Below, piece by piece: positions 3,638 to 62,951 of a stretch of 64,000 nt of DNA. The notes under the pieces were generated by a model. The model saw nothing but the letters and a program-made list of their open reading frames with translations. It did no database searches and was not told where the DNA came from. This DNA comes from Acidobacteriota bacterium (lineage in GTDB: Bacteria > Actinomycetota > Acidimicrobiia > Acidimicrobiales > Ilumatobacteraceae). Numbering within the stretch: the first letter of the stretch is position 1; each line of letters begins with the position of its first letter. Both the position numbers and the translations under genes were made by a program. The stretch is from positions 49,852-113,851 of the forward strand of contig JAGWWV010000002.1 in assembly GCA_018970175.1 (NCBI GenBank), in the 5' to 3' direction.

Positions 3638-4462
3638 ATGCCCCGATTGCGCGAGTTTCCATGGCGCGCCACGCGTGATCCGTGGCATGTGCTCATCTCC
3701 GAGGTGATGCTGCAACAGACGAACGTCGGTCGTGTGCGACCGCGCTTCGAACGCTTCGTGGCCCTGGCACCAACACCAGCGGCATGTGTCGACGTTGCGC
3801 TGGCCGACTTGTTGGTGGAATGGCAGGGGATGGGGTATCCGCGCCGGTGCCGCAACATCCAGGATGCGGCGCGAGTGATCGTCGAACGGCACGGCGGCGA
3901 GGTGCCGCGTGATCTCGATTCACTGATGGCGTTGCCCGGAATCGGGCCGTACACCGCGCGAGCGATCCTTGCGTTTGCCTTTGGTGATGATGCCGCGGTC
4001 GTCGACACGAACGTCGCGCGCGTGATTTCGCGTGTCGAAGGTCGAGCCATGAAACCGCGTGAGACGCAGGCGCTTGCAGATGAGATGCTGCCCCGCGGCC
4101 TGTCCCGGGACTGGAACCAGGTCGTGATGGATTTCGGGGCAACCGTGTGCAACGCACGTTCACCCCGATGCTCGTCGTGTCCGATTGCACGTCTCTGCTC
4201 GTGGTGCGGCGAGGGAGCCGACCCCGCGCGCACCACGGCTTTCACGAGTCGCCCCCAGGGCCGTTTCGAAGGGTCCGACCGACAGGCGCGCGGGCGGATG
4301 ATGAAACGACTCACCGAGGGTTCGGTTCAAGCGACACGCGTCGCCGAAGTGATGGGGCTCGACGACGGCGATCGCGCCGAACGTCTCGTCGAGTCACTGG
4401 TCGCCGACGGACTGGTTGAACGTGTCGGCCGTGCCTACAGGCTCAGCGAGAAACGCAGATAG
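3638..4462 (+). CDS. mutY: A/G-specific adenine glycosylase-like HhH-GPD DNA glycosylase
   Basis: EFPWRATRDPWHVLISEVMLQQTNVGRV, LMALPGIGPYTARAILAFAFG, C-x6-C-x2-C-x5-C iron-sulfur motif; start could be 3539. Lacks an obvious Nudix-like C-terminal domain. Confidence 0.8.
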   Translation: MPRLREFPWRATRDPWHVLISEVMLQQTNVGRVRPRFERFVALAPTPAACVDVALADLLVEWQGMGYPRRCRNIQDAARVIVERHGGEVPRDLDSLMALPGIGPYTARAILAFAFGDDAAVVDTNVARVISRVEGRAMKPRETQALADEMLPRGLSRDWNQVVMDFGATVCNARSPRCSSCPIARLCSWCGEGADPARTTAFTSRPQGRFEGSDRQARGRMMKRLTEGSVQATRVAEVMGLDDGDRAERLVESLVADGLVERVGRAYRLSEKRR

Positions 4463-4985
4463 CGGCGAGGATTTCCGGAAACGCGGCGTCTGCGATGGCG
4501 ACCATCTCGTCGTCGGTGCGGTCCTGGATCGGGTGCTCGACGAACACGCGTGCGACGTCGGGGAAGCCCAACGCCTCGGATTGTGAGATTGCCGCCGTTA
4601 CGAACTCGCTCGAGGCGACGAACATCGAGGGCACGCCCCGGAGTTCCAAGTCTGCGATGTCGTGCACACTGCACGACGTGCAGCTGCCTCAATCGGCAAG
4701 TGCTTCGATGACGAGATTGCACTGCGAGGCGATCTCGTGACGAAGGTCGGCCGGAGCCGGCTTGGTGAAGGTGGGTTTCGCGTAGCGCATCACGCGCGCA
4801 CCGCGTTCGGTGAGCAACTGTTCGATGCGGTCGAGGAAGACGTCGCCACGGGGTTTGCGAATGTCGAGCAGACCGATTGTCATGCCGTCGATCGATTCGG
4901 GACGGGCGAGCAGCTCGCGTCGAGCCGGGCGCGACTCGCTCGTTGGGTCGAGGATGGTGAGGCGGGCTGCTGTCACGGGCTCCAT
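4443..4985 (-). CDS. UGSC-type selenoprotein; in-frame UGA at 4689-4691 predicted to encode selenocysteine
   Basis: ORFs 4689..4985 and 4443..4667 lie in the same frame; reading through the TGA gives ...CNLVIEALAD-U-GSCTSCSVHDIADLELRGVPSMFVASSEFV..., a continuous 180-codon product. Perfect hairpin follows the UGA. Confidence 0.85.
4659..4677 (-). promoter_or_regulatory. candidate bacterial SECIS hairpin
   Basis: Minus strand after UGA: GGCAGCTGCAC then GTCGTGCA-GTG-TGCACGAC, a perfect 8-bp stem with GUG apical loop starting with G. Confidence 0.6.
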
Positions 4986-4997
4986 TCTTTCACGAAA

Positions 4998-6443
4998 TCA
5001 GCTCTTCACCGCGACGGTGACCGGCTGGCTTCCCATGTCGCCATTGGCCCAGCCGGCGATGATCGATGAAAAGAGGCCGGCTCCACCACCTGCGTGCGTG
5101 AGAAGGATTCCGTCGGGTCGAAACTTCGGCACGGTGCGGTCGCGGAATCGATCGGGGAGTCCTTCGGCCATTCCGTCGACTCCACGGAGGATGGTGTTCG
5201 AGTCGATCTGCAACCGTGAATGCAGTTCGTCGAGGATTCGCCGCCGATCCCAACCCGCCTCCGCAAAGAGTCGCGAATGGTCGGGACTCACCACGAGGAT
5301 CACGTCGAACGCCATGACCGACTTCGGGTGCATGACCGTTCGCAGGCACGCCGCAAACGACGTCACCAGTTCATCGGGAGTGCGGGCGAGTTGGTCGACG
5401 GCGCAGCGCGGTCCCTCGCCGGCAAACACCGTGACGGCATCGACGCCGCCGGGGATGCCGCGCTCGGTGGCCAAGGTGCCGAAGGGTGAGCCATCCTCGT
5501 CTTCGGCGAAACAGAAACTGAGCTTGCCGGGGTTGCCGTGCGTCGCGCGGTCGACCTCGCCGGGTCGGCCGCCGCCGACGTTGCGGATCGTCAGTTGCAC
5601 TGCGCGGCCGATGGTCATGTTCGCGCGGTTGCCCTGGCCGAACACGTTGATCCCGCTGTTCATCCCGATGCGCTTGGTGCCGGGTCCGTTGCACACGATG
5701 ACGGGTCCGACCGGCATCGTGGTGGCGAGTACTCCGTGCATGTTGAACTTGTCGTTGCACACAGCCTCGAGAGCGGCGATCACCCACGGCAGATATTCGG
5801 GAAGGCAACCGGCCATCACGGCGTTGATTGCGACCTTCTCGACGGTGAGGGGGACGAGATCGGGTGGTGCGAGTGCGATCACCTCGTCGGGTTTCCGCGT
5901 GGTGCCGGTGAGCATCCGCAGAACGCGTTCCGGCGTCGGCGGTATGACGGGTAATCCGTCGGTCCAACCGCGGTTGAACATCGATTCGAATTCGTCCTCG
6001 GCTGCAGCCATCTCGACCTGACGCGCGGTCAACACCGAACCCGTGAATTGCGCGCGCAATTTGTCGACGATGTCGGGGTCGACACTGAGCGAACCACATC
6101 CGGGACGCATGACGGGGAGTTCCTCCCCGAGATGGCCGAGCCCCGTGAGCTCACGCCAGGCGTCGCGGCTCCAGCCGACGGTGCGCGCCACCTCGACGCC
6201 GTTCTCGATACGCATCAACGTCGGGACGGTTTCGATGTCGTTGTGCCACGACACCGCGAGATCCTCGTCATGGAGATGCGGTACGGACTCGGGGAACGAC
6301 GCGTCGTCCTGCGTGTAGACGGTGAGTTTCGATGAGCGTGAGATGTCGGCGAGAACCGGCTCGGTCATCACGCACGTCGCGCACTCGCGTTTGACGACGA
6401 CGACGAAACCATCGGGCAGAACGGGCTTTGTCATGAGATCCAT
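4998..6443 (-). CDS. thioredoxin-like N-terminal domain plus large conserved domain of unknown function; partner gene of the selenoprotein
   Basis: VVVVKRECATCVMTEPVLADI (CxxC after beta strand), WHNDIETVPTLMRIENG thioredoxin-like; C-terminal GWTDGLPVIPPTPERVLRML...NMTIGRAVQLTIRNVGGGRPG. Ends 12 nt before the selenoprotein start. Confidence 0.7.
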   Translation of the reverse strand: MDLMTKPVLPDGFVVVVKRECATCVMTEPVLADISRSSKLTVYTQDDASFPESVPHLHDEDLAVSWHNDIETVPTLMRIENGVEVARTVGWSRDAWRELTGLGHLGEELPVMRPGCGSLSVDPDIVDKLRAQFTGSVLTARQVEMAAAEDEFESMFNRGWTDGLPVIPPTPERVLRMLTGTTRKPDEVIALAPPDLVPLTVEKVAINAVMAGCLPEYLPWVIAALEAVCNDKFNMHGVLATTMPVGPVIVCNGPGTKRIGMNSGINVFGQGNRANMTIGRAVQLTIRNVGGGRPGEVDRATHGNPGKLSFCFAEDEDGSPFGTLATERGIPGGVDAVTVFAGEGPRCAVDQLARTPDELVTSFAACLRTVMHPKSVMAFDVILVVSPDHSRLFAEAGWDRRRILDELHSRLQIDSNTILRGVDGMAEGLPDRFRDRTVPKFRPDGILLTHAGGGAGLFSSIIAGWANGDMGSQPVTVAVKS

Positions 6444-7312
6444 CCCAACACGTGGTCGGCAACCACCGTCGGCTGTTCGAGTTGGAGAAAGTGTCCCGCA
6501 CCTTCGACCAGCCGCACCTCGACCGTCGCCGGCGAAGTGGCTGCGGCGAACTCGGCGACTTCCCGACCGATGCAGCCGTCATTCACGCCGTGGAGATAGA
6601 GGAGCGGTTGGGTCGGCGTCTCTGATCCCATGCGAGCTTGGAGATCGGCGAGGGCCGGGTCCTTCTTGCCGTCGCCGAGAGTCGCGCGGTAGTAGCCCAG
6701 TGCGGCTGCGAGGTTCTTCGGATCGCGCAACGCGTCTTTCGTTGCGGCCACCGTGTCGGCGCCGTCGAAACCCGGCGACCAGTCGTTCCACAACATGTCG
6801 ATGTAGGCAAGGTCGTTCGCTGCAACCACCATGTCGGACAACGGGTGCTGAAAGAAGAACATGTACCAACTGCGCTTCAGTTGTGCGAGGTTTCCGACGA
6901 GAGCGGCACCGATGGCCGGCCCGGGTGGTACGGCCATGCCGACGACACGCCGCCACCGGTCGGGGGCAAGGAGCGCGGCGCCGTAGGTCGCGGGTGCACC
7001 CCAGTCGTGACCGACGATGACCGCGTCGCCGTCGCCACCGAGTGCATCGTGCAGTGCAACCGCGTCAGCGGCGAGGGCTGCGGTCTGGAAACAACCGTCG
7101 GCGGGTACCGAGGTTGGCGCGTAGCCGCGCATGAAAGGGGCGACCGCACGCCATCCGGCATCGGCCAGGCGTTCCATGAGAGGTCGCCAGGAATGGGCCG
7201 AATCGGGAAACCCGTGAAGCAGCAGCGCAAGGGGGCCATTGCCGAGGGTGAGGCATTGGAAGTCGACACCCCGCGTTTCGACGCTGATCGCGGTGGGTCG
7301 GGTGGGCGACAT
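6431..7312 (-). CDS. alpha/beta hydrolase (epoxide hydrolase-like)
   Basis: ALLLHGFPDSAHSWRPL, VIVGHDWGAPATYGAAL, C-terminal GAGHFLQLEQP; overlaps start of the 4998-6443 gene. Confidence 0.85.
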   Translation of the reverse strand: MSPTRPTAISVETRGVDFQCLTLGNGPLALLLHGFPDSAHSWRPLMERLADAGWRAVAPFMRGYAPTSVPADGCFQTAALAADAVALHDALGGDGDAVIVGHDWGAPATYGAALLAPDRWRRVVGMAVPPGPAIGAALVGNLAQLKRSWYMFFFQHPLSDMVVAANDLAYIDMLWNDWSPGFDGADTVAATKDALRDPKNLAAALGYYRATLGDGKKDPALADLQARMGSETPTQPLLYLHGVNDGCIGREVAEFAAATSPATVEVRLVEGAGHFLQLEQPTVVADHVLGWIS

Positions 7313-7396
7313 GTACGAAAAACTAGTCGCTGCGACGAAGGTCACGGGCCCTGCCCATTTACTTCACAGGTACTCCACCTTTACCGTCTCTTCGCA

Positions 7397-60766: not shown

Positions 60767-61936
60767 GTGACCTTCGTTGGTGTCCGTGGTGGGAAGCATC
60801 ACGCCACGGTGGACGACTGCGGCCGAATCGAACTGACCGACGGCTCGCCGATTCTCGATTGGCACGTCGCCGACGAGCAACGCTGGCATTCCGCGGGAAT
60901 CGCGGGTCTGCGGCAAGAGACTCTCGCCGGCACGCCCGTTGTCGAAACGAAGATGCGCGTGCTGGGTGGCGACGTCGTGCAGCGCATCTGGGCGGTGGCC
61001 GACCACGGTGGGCTGGTCGTCGTCGAGTTCGAAAACGACTCGCCCACGTCGGTTGCCGTGGCGCTGACGCGTGGTGACCTTGTCACCTCGCGTCCGGTGC
61101 CCAACCAGCAGATACCCGGCATCGACCTGCCGGCGGGAAGCATTGCGCTGCCTCTCGCGCACCGCAGCACACTGCGGGTCGCGTTGCCCCTCGGCGACAC
61201 GCCGACGGGGGTCGACCTTGGGGCGCTTCCCTCTGCCGTGCAGGTGTCGCGCGGTTGGTTGCAGGTCGTCGAATCCGCATCGAGGCTCGTGTGCGCGGAC
61301 GCGCCGATCGCACAGGCGTTCGACGAGGTCAATGCCGCACGCTGCGAGCTTCTCGTGTGCGGCATCCCGAACCCGTCCGACGACCCGCTCGGTGCGCTGA
61401 TCGGCGGGATCGAACTCGTGCGCCTCGGCGAGAACCCCTACATCTGGATCGACGAGTTGGTGCCGTTGGCCGAGCGTTGTCTTGCGACTGCCGACCAACA
61501 TCCGCGTTTCTTGCTGGCCCACGCGGTGGCCGGCCTGCAGTCGGTGCTCGCCAAGGCTGGTGAGCCACGAGCGGTCCGCGATGTCGCCAAGGCATGGTCC
61601 CGCGTCGCGGGAGAGGGTCGCTCCGGTTGGTCCGCGCGCCCCGCGACGACCGTGATCGCCAACGTCGAACAGTCACTTTTGTCGGTGCGCGCCGACAACA
61701 CGGGTGTTTTCTTGCCGCGCGGTATTCCCGATGATTGGAAGGGCATCAACTTCGAGGCACACGGCTTGTGCGGGCCATCGGGTGCGCGCGTTGGTTTCGC
61801 GCTGCGCTGGCACGGCGAGAACGCGGCCGTGTTGTGGGAATCGTCGTCGCCCGACGTACGTCTCACTTCGGGTGTCGACGCGACATGGTCGAACGCGGGA
61901 ACCGCGGGTGGTGACGCCCTGTGGTTGGTTTCGTAG
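60767..61936 (+). CDS. hypothetical protein between gpsA and selD
   Basis: Long ORF with coding bias; GTG start; no family recognised by eye. Confidence 0.7.
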   Translation: MTFVGVRGGKHHATVDDCGRIELTDGSPILDWHVADEQRWHSAGIAGLRQETLAGTPVVETKMRVLGGDVVQRIWAVADHGGLVVVEFENDSPTSVAVALTRGDLVTSRPVPNQQIPGIDLPAGSIALPLAHRSTLRVALPLGDTPTGVDLGALPSAVQVSRGWLQVVESASRLVCADAPIAQAFDEVNAARCELLVCGIPNPSDDPLGALIGGIELVRLGENPYIWIDELVPLAERCLATADQHPRFLLAHAVAGLQSVLAKAGEPRAVRDVAKAWSRVAGEGRSGWSARPATTVIANVEQSLLSVRADNTGVFLPRGIPDDWKGINFEAHGLCGPSGARVGFALRWHGENAAVLWESSSPDVRLTSGVDATWSNAGTAGGDALWLVS

Positions 61937-61946
61937 GATCCAGCCG

Positions 61947-62951
61947 ATGAGTGCACAACTGCGTTTGACCGAGTGGACTTCGTGCGGTGGCTGCGCCGCC
62001 AAGTGGGGTGCATCACTGCTGTCCGAGTTGGTGGCGGAACTGCCCGGCTCGTTTGACAAATCGCTTCTCGTCGGTCTCGCTCCTTTCGATGATGCGGCCG
62101 TCTACAAGGTGACCGACGATGTGGCTCTCGTCAGCACCACAGACTTCTTTCCTCCGCTCGTCGACGACCCCGACGACTTCGGTGCCATCGCGGCAGCCAA
62201 CGCCTGTAGCGATGTCTTTGCGATGGGTGCTCACGTCGTGATGGCGATCAACGTGGCCGCGTTTCCGGAACACTTTCCGCACGACGCGATCACCGCCATC
62301 TTCGCCGCGGCGAGCAAGGTCGTCGCCGAGGCCGGTGGCTCCATCGCAGGGGGTCACACAATTCGTAACCCCGAGCCGATCTTCGGCCTTGCCGTGCAGG
62401 GTGTGGTGCACCCCGACAAGATCTGGCGCAAGGGTGGTGCGAAGCCGGGTGACGTCGTGATGATGTCGAAGCCCATTGGTACCGCGCTCGCCCTCGCCGG
62501 TGGTTGCTCGACCGACAAGCGCGCGGCAATCAACGGGATGCGTGTGTTGAATCGACGTGCAGCCGACCAACTGCGGGAACTCGGCGACGACGTGCACGCC
62601 GTCACCGACGTGACGGGATACGGACTCGCCGGCCACGGCTGGGAAGTTGCCGAGCGCGGCAACGTGCGCCTCCACATCGAGACCTCGAACATCGTCAGTT
62701 ATCCCGGGGCGGCAAAGGCCGCGGCCGACGGACTGCGCACGGGCGGCGACCCACGCAACCGTGCGTACGTCGAGGGTCGAGCCGTCACTCACGCACCCGA
62801 CGAACGTGCCGCGCTGTGCTTCGACCCGCAGACCTCCGGTGGGTTGCTTGCGGCGGTACCGCCGACGCGCGAGGGCGAGCTCGCCGCGCAGGGTTGGTGG
62901 CGTGCCGGATTCATCGCCGAGGGAACACCCGGGATCGTGCTCGAGGCGTGA
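61947..62951 (+). CDS. selD: selenide, water dikinase (selenophosphate synthetase)
   Basis: LTEWTSCGGCAAKWGASLLSELV; DVALVSTTDFFPPLVDDPDDFGAIAAANACSDVFAMGA; VTGYGLAGHGWEVAE; FDPQTSGGLLAAV. Confidence 0.95.
   Translation: MSAQLRLTEWTSCGGCAAKWGASLLSELVAELPGSFDKSLLVGLAPFDDAAVYKVTDDVALVSTTDFFPPLVDDPDDFGAIAAANACSDVFAMGAHVVMAINVAAFPEHFPHDAITAIFAAASKVVAEAGGSIAGGHTIRNPEPIFGLAVQGVVHPDKIWRKGGAKPGDVVMMSKPIGTALALAGGCSTDKRAAINGMRVLNRRAADQLRELGDDVHAVTDVTGYGLAGHGWEVAERGNVRLHIETSNIVSYPGAAKAAADGLRTGGDPRNRAYVEGRAVTHAPDERAALCFDPQTSGGLLAAVPPTREGELAAQGWWRAGFIAEGTPGIVLEA

Follow-up and report, generated by a model that had tools for sequence, protein, structure and literature searches.

The gene at 4443–4985 on the minus strand of the window (the whole stretch of 64,000 nucleotides analyzed here) almost certainly encodes a selenoprotein of the UGSC family, in which UGA codon 99 would be decoded as selenocysteine (Sec) by SelA, SelB, SelC, and SelD by way of a SECIS-like hairpin located downstream. 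A freshwater-type actinobacterial gene that seems to be broken by a stop codon is, on this evidence, a real selenoprotein gene, and its association with a partner suggests a testable role for the family. Since 2008, UGSC proteins have been counted with the most abundant selenoproteins of aquatic metagenomes (PMC2398784), and in a 2026 review the family is still entered without a function (PMC13188914). Within this already known family the window gene is unremarkable; the interest of the locus lies in an undescribed partner protein, a link to thioredoxin, and a Sec form of the partner itself. Judged from sequence comparisons, the pair is best read, with moderate confidence, as a two-subunit selenoenzyme driven by thioredoxin, and more tentatively as one that serves carboxylic-acid catabolism.

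The UGSC gene runs from 4985 to 4443 in one frame, codes for 180 aa, and ends in a TGA at 4443–4445; its start could be off by a few codons. The sole internal TGA, at 4689–4691, is codon 99 and supplies the U of U-G-S-C-T-S-C. The preliminary description had joined the minus-strand ORFs 4689–4985 and 4443–4667 as one frame with only this TGA between them, and its coordinates, frame, and motif are all confirmed. The start of the second ORF at 4667 is a GTG (Val107), which is the first start-like codon past the UGA and not a real start. The 180-residue read-through product scored 161.5 bits against NCBIfam NF041046, "UGSC family (seleno)protein" (curated cut-off 125), and 158.5 bits against Pfam PF24696 (curated cut-off 25). 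Both matches span the UGA, covering profile positions 2–146 of 147 and 1–170 of 172, respectively. These models represent the family, named for its motif and without an established function, to which the preliminary description had referred. The window protein agrees with that family in score, motif, length, and Sec position, with no essential difference. In a comparison with a close relative (L078, 94% identical), the codons ahead of the UGA differ by 23 synonymous and 6 non-synonymous changes and those behind it by 26 and 2, respectively, a sign of purifying selection on either side.

The host genome is a 2.25-Mb draft in 121 contigs (90% complete), and its closest named relatives are actinobacterial metagenome-assembled genomes, several of them labelled Ilumatobacteraceae or Acidimicrobiaceae. 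A gene for selenophosphate synthase, selD, had already been noticed in the window and is confirmed there on the plus strand (61704–62951 for the ORF as listed; TIGR00476, 318.7 bits, cut-off 125); its true start lies further inside the listed ORF, the TIGR00476 match beginning at residue 87. A profile search of the genome detected selA (C63:65780, 405.7 bits) and selB (C63:66961, 257 bits) side by side on one contig, and tRNA-Sec was found at C47:76360 (64 bits) with the anticodon TCA assigned by ARAGORN. Both contigs differ from the one that carries UGSC. Sec-type formate dehydrogenase was not seen in the host genome, since the PF00384 matches contain no in-frame stops. Among 248 genomes of the order, 112 contain both UGSC and tRNA-Sec, 12 only UGSC, 34 only the tRNA, and 90 neither, counts for which the Fisher value overstates the significance because the genomes are related. 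Furthermore, selB lies directly upstream of the partner–UGSC pair in 16 of 80 loci, with selA as well in 13 where the contig reaches that far, which ties the pair to Sec synthesis. The locus is also present in the cultured species Ilumatobacter nonamiensis (L107). A search of the open-access literature returned nothing on selenoproteins in Ilumatobacter or Acidimicrobia, and the phage records searched contained no UGSC.

The alignment of homologs continues across the UGA, where they have Sec, or Cys if no tRNA-Sec was found. The codon is TGA throughout, both in the 30 best loci from related genomes (30/30) and in the 80 fetched by homology from the genome collection (80/80). Four of the 12 UGSC-only genomes, all from one genus and 93–100% complete, gave no tRNA-Sec match, and no in-frame stop interrupts their UGSC copies. 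The five of these copies that are readable across the motif all have Cys, as does a sixth match (L246). In all, eight copies without an in-frame TGA have Cys at the first position of the motif. Genome G225 contains tRNA-Sec, yet has Cys copies of UGSC as well. Seven other UGSC-only genomes, rechecked or listed, retain the TGA; several are incomplete, and in some of these the tRNA-Sec gene may sit in the missing part.

The selenoprotein reading of the preliminary description has thus been borne out, and two features that it had overlooked, the hairpin and the upstream partner gene, can be added to it. The SECIS-like stem-loop (4659–4677, minus strand) begins 14 nt past the first base of UGA99 and has an 8-bp stem and a 3-nt apical loop, GUG. 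The window sequence folds into this structure with an unexceptional single-sequence z-score of only −1.06, so the case for the hairpin rests on comparative evidence. In 117 non-identical close homologs with the motif GSCT[ST]CSVHD, the stem codons are nearly frozen, with Ser106 (AGT), Val107 (GTG), and Asp109 (GAC) unchanged in 117/117, Cys105 (TGC) in 116/117, and Thr103 (ACG) in 115/117. The adjoining codons +1 to +3 and +11 to +15 vary freely. Stem pair 18–30 is G-C in 100 homologs, A-U in 11, and G-U in 6, and is therefore paired in 117/117 against 107.6 expected from independent columns; A18 always occurs with U30 (11/11), compared with U30 in 6 of the 106 others. The hairpin recurs with unchanged spacing in many divergent UGSC paralogs. 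It is not formed in the UGSCT[ST]GT subgroup and in some UGACTAC members, and no SECIS model in Rfam matches the window hairpin.

There is next to no chance that translation really ends at the UGA and that the sequence is a pseudogene or a pair of small genes. Ordinary ORF calling does split the gene, and standard annotation truncates such genes, as had been anticipated; in the plasmid of Acidovorax sp. T1, the TGA-containing homolog has been entered as a short "hypothetical protein." This reading is rejected because 110 loci share a TGA at the same site and purifying selection acts on both sides of it, and because the hairpin covaries, Cys homologs exist, and the Sec machinery is complete.

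The partner gene (4998–6443, minus strand) encodes a protein of 481 aa with a thioredoxin-like domain and an uncharacterized core domain, and its stop codon lies 12 nt ahead of the UGSC start. The core, at about residues 139–481 (5001–6029; profile A6), comprises ~350 aa with invariant DGLP and AGC motifs (D162-G-L-P165; G212-C213) and stands alone, without thioredoxin, in paralogs. Profile searches of Pfam, NCBIfam, and PDB sequences recognized no relatives of the core; when PDB sequences were searched with the profiles of UGSC and of the core, only thioredoxins came up, for the fused domain. An alpha/beta hydrolase gene identified by alpha/beta-hydrolase models (6431–7345, minus strand) extends 13 nt into the start of the partner gene with its 3′ end. 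A same-strand cluster of this kind upstream of the partner occurs in 23 of the 81 neighborhoods compared, and the hydrolase is possibly a member of an operon with the pair.

In 30/30 loci of related genomes and 73/80 loci of the collection, a homolog of the partner lies directly upstream of UGSC in the same orientation. Four of the remaining seven start <400 nt from a contig end, and three have a same-strand partner 1–7 kb upstream. One locus (L108, 2650–9001) has ~6 kb of nucleotide-sugar/methyltransferase-type and glycosyltransferase-like genes between partner and UGSC, together with a fragment of a second UGSC copy (6029–6124), and looks as if a cluster had been inserted between the two. 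Among 37 loci of divergent paralogs, which were chosen partly through either protein, 31 have the core within 400 bp of UGSC. The core is missing from that distance in 6/37 divergent loci and 3/80 collection loci, where the contig either leaves room for it or is cut off. UGSC occurs in eight plasmid records, all of them with an adjoining core, and their hosts include the haloarchaea Natrinema, Halorientalis, and Halalkalicoccus and the proteobacteria Acidovorax and Variovorax. In the Acidovorax sp. T1 record, where the truncated UGSC homolog is at L255 6983–7273, the core is unannotated. Vibrio europaeus and Sporomusa termitida encode a single chain in which a degenerate UGSC-like domain (E 1.9e-7 and 1.1e-6, respectively) precedes the core. 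These fusions have Met at the U/C position and Ser for the second Cys, would therefore be incapable of Sec/Cys chemistry, and are perhaps a non-redox offshoot; genes for aconitase X and DUF126 proteins lie nearby (L261 5323–7008 and L260 5329–7053). The adjacency across loci, plasmids, and fusions is good evidence that UGSC and the partner work together, and synteny, fusion, and domain content make it very likely that the two proteins are the components of one enzyme. Zhang and Gladyshev have reported a "UGSC-containing protein" and its fusion to a domain named "Unknown_1" (PMC2398784), which may be the same core. Apart from that fusion, the published descriptions of the UGSC family consulted here give no partner. 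The UGSC–core pairing, the thioredoxin link, the Sec form of the partner, and the predicted UGSC fold with its weak similarity to GrdB are new so far as we have searched.

The thioredoxin-like domain of the partner, at about residues 11–100 (6144–6413, minus strand), was recognized by profile matches to thioredoxins (best E 1.9e-4) and is backed by an AF2 model and Foldseek matches to thioredoxins. It contains the motif C21-x-x-C24 (6372–6383, minus strand), a conserved column in alignment A2. The gene order is trxB-trxA-core-UGSC in Arthrobacter sp. ERGS1:01 and core-UGSC-trxB in Roseovarius sp. THAF8, and in Variovorax sp. SRS16 trxB lies three genes upstream of core-UGSC. In many paralogs the core has neither a fused thioredoxin nor an adjacent trx gene. 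From the fusion in the window family and the trx neighbors in these three plasmid loci, we infer that thioredoxin probably serves as the electron donor for UGSC.

Cys116 of the partner (R-P-G-C-G-S; 6096–6098, minus strand) occupies an otherwise invariant column, and in eight genomes of one family (f54; L158–L165) a TGA replaces this codon so that P-G-C-G-S becomes P-G-U-G-S. A stem downstream of the partner TGA has a spacing equal to that of UGSC. It shows a compensatory C-G to U-A change in one genome, and Cys homologs have different codons there. The switch from Cys to Sec was probably a single event, because the eight genomes are closely related, and it singles out residue 116 as a redox residue. 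The Sec form of the partner falls outside all NCBIfam and Pfam models, so that annotation pipelines will truncate it, and no entry of the 2026 review of selenoproteins could be matched to it. The thioredoxin-fused partner with TGA in f54 thus appears, from its sequence, to be a selenoprotein family unmodelled so far.

The AF2 model of UGSC, built from 48 sequences (mean pLDDT 95.1), has five strands that alternate with helices and places Sec99 between strand 3 and the next helix. Foldseek comparison of the model with the PDB returned flavodoxins, B12-binding domains, lumazine synthase, and SIS domains (E ~1e-4, TM 0.4–0.5), and no thioredoxin was among the best 50 matches. The fold is thus predicted to be flavodoxin/Rossmann-like and five-stranded. 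A thioredoxin-like fold and a redox function had been proposed for UGSC in 2008 (PMC2398784); that fold is not supported by the model and the Foldseek result, and we reject it.

The genes near UGSC paralogs, which number up to ten per genome, and near plasmid copies include those for amidohydrolases, SDRs, thiolase, enoyl-CoA hydratase, CoA transferases, PEP-mutase/isocitrate-lyase-like proteins, and TRAP/TTT transporters. These neighbors are too diverse to indicate a single pathway. Annotated phosphosulfolactate synthase genes lie near UGSC-core in Arthrobacter (L257 3678–4466) and Natrinema zhouii (L271 1494–1961), a possible hint at the substrate class. In the mechanism that we propose, UGSC and the 4998–6443 protein would form a two-component enzyme, and the DGLP/AGC core would bind or activate the substrate. 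The selenolate would attack an organic-acid substrate reductively, as in GrdB and PrdB of glycine and proline reductase, and the thioredoxin domain of the partner (more generally, an NADPH–TrxB–Trx relay) would regenerate the Sec99/Cys102 pair. Such GrdB/PrdB-like reductive chemistry in the service of carboxylic-acid catabolism is suggested tentatively, by analogy, from the motif, a weak profile similarity, and the neighborhoods. The near-constant partner, the fused or neighboring thioredoxin system, and the covarying hairpin make up a protein set that is open to co-expression and assay.

Two other functions have to be weighed against this one. UGSC and its partner could be a general thiol-disulfide oxidoreductase or antioxidant pair that reduces peroxides, disulfides, or methionine sulfoxide, a reading in keeping with the UxxC motif, the fused CxxC thioredoxin domain, and the redox function assigned in the literature from a presumed thioredoxin-like fold (PMC2398784). 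We consider it unlikely because the predicted UGSC fold, at a mean pLDDT of 95, is not thioredoxin-like and because as many as ten paralogs in a genome, set amid catabolic enzymes and transporters, fit substrate-specific enzymes better than housekeeping redox proteins. Less probable still is a hydro-lyase or isomerase-type pair with a core resembling Fe-S fumarase, in which Sec or Cys would be a ligand or an acid-base group and not an electron carrier. The invariant Cys213 of the core and the aconitase X genes next to the fusions in Vibrio and Sporomusa are consistent with such an enzyme, as are the fusions themselves, which without U/C would need a non-redox function. The partner also gave a weak Foldseek match in the PDB to class I fumarase of Leishmania (E 3.7e-4), but a TM-score of 0.22 with an rmsd of 16 Å makes the superposition unreliable, and homology to class I fumarase is not accepted. 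Sec is seldom selected for non-redox roles, and a lyase would leave the thioredoxin fusion and the trxA/trxB neighbors unexplained. A thioredoxin-driven selenoenzyme acting on organic acids remains the preferred reading.

Thioredoxin-fold selenoproteins (Trx-like, Prx-like) share UxxC and thiol/selenol redox chemistry with UGSC and differ from it in predicted fold. The preliminary description had called U-G-S-C-T-S-C a redox-type, cysteine-rich motif and had missed its likeness to the U-x-x-C-x-x-C of GrdB, which it resembles more than it does a plain thioredoxin-like site; its second Cys is not conserved in divergent UGSC paralogs. GrdB homologs of the same order read ILTATUGTGTRCG..LAKELERAGIP, and the window UGSC reads VIEALADUGSCTSCSVHDI.DLERRGVP. 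The comparison of UGSC with GrdB by hhalign was weak (P 2.3e-4, probability 44%) and placed Sec on Sec, and that with PrdB-like proteins (P 1.4e-3, probability 17.6%) brought Sec or the adjoining helix into register; two unrelated controls gave P 0.26 and 0.46. PF07355 (GrdB/PrdB) had no match in the host genome at E 0.001. Short PrdB-like LLVPVUP[VL]C and GrdB-like UGTGTRC proteins with in-frame TGA occur in Acidimicrobiales (L216–L225), several per genome.

GrdB/PrdB and UGSC have in common a U-x-x-C-x-x-C motif where a helix begins behind a beta strand, with [DE]LE-x-x-G[IV]P further on, and both systems have a separate partner subunit and thioredoxin as the electron source, for UGSC the presumed one. 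Common descent of UGSC and the Sec domain of GrdB is possible from these sequence features. UGSC is shorter, at ~180 aa compared with ~420 for full-length GrdB in these genomes, the core of its partner has no recognized relation to GrdE/PrdA, and its carriers are haloarchaea and Acidimicrobiales that are presumably aerobic. UGSC and the DGLP/AGC core may represent a widespread and so far unrecognized class of thioredoxin-dependent two-subunit (seleno)enzymes, with the thioredoxin-fused partner as a second selenoprotein family (P-G-U-G-S) in one Acidimicrobiales lineage. Such a class would parallel glycine and proline reductase in mechanism and occur in both aerobes and archaea.
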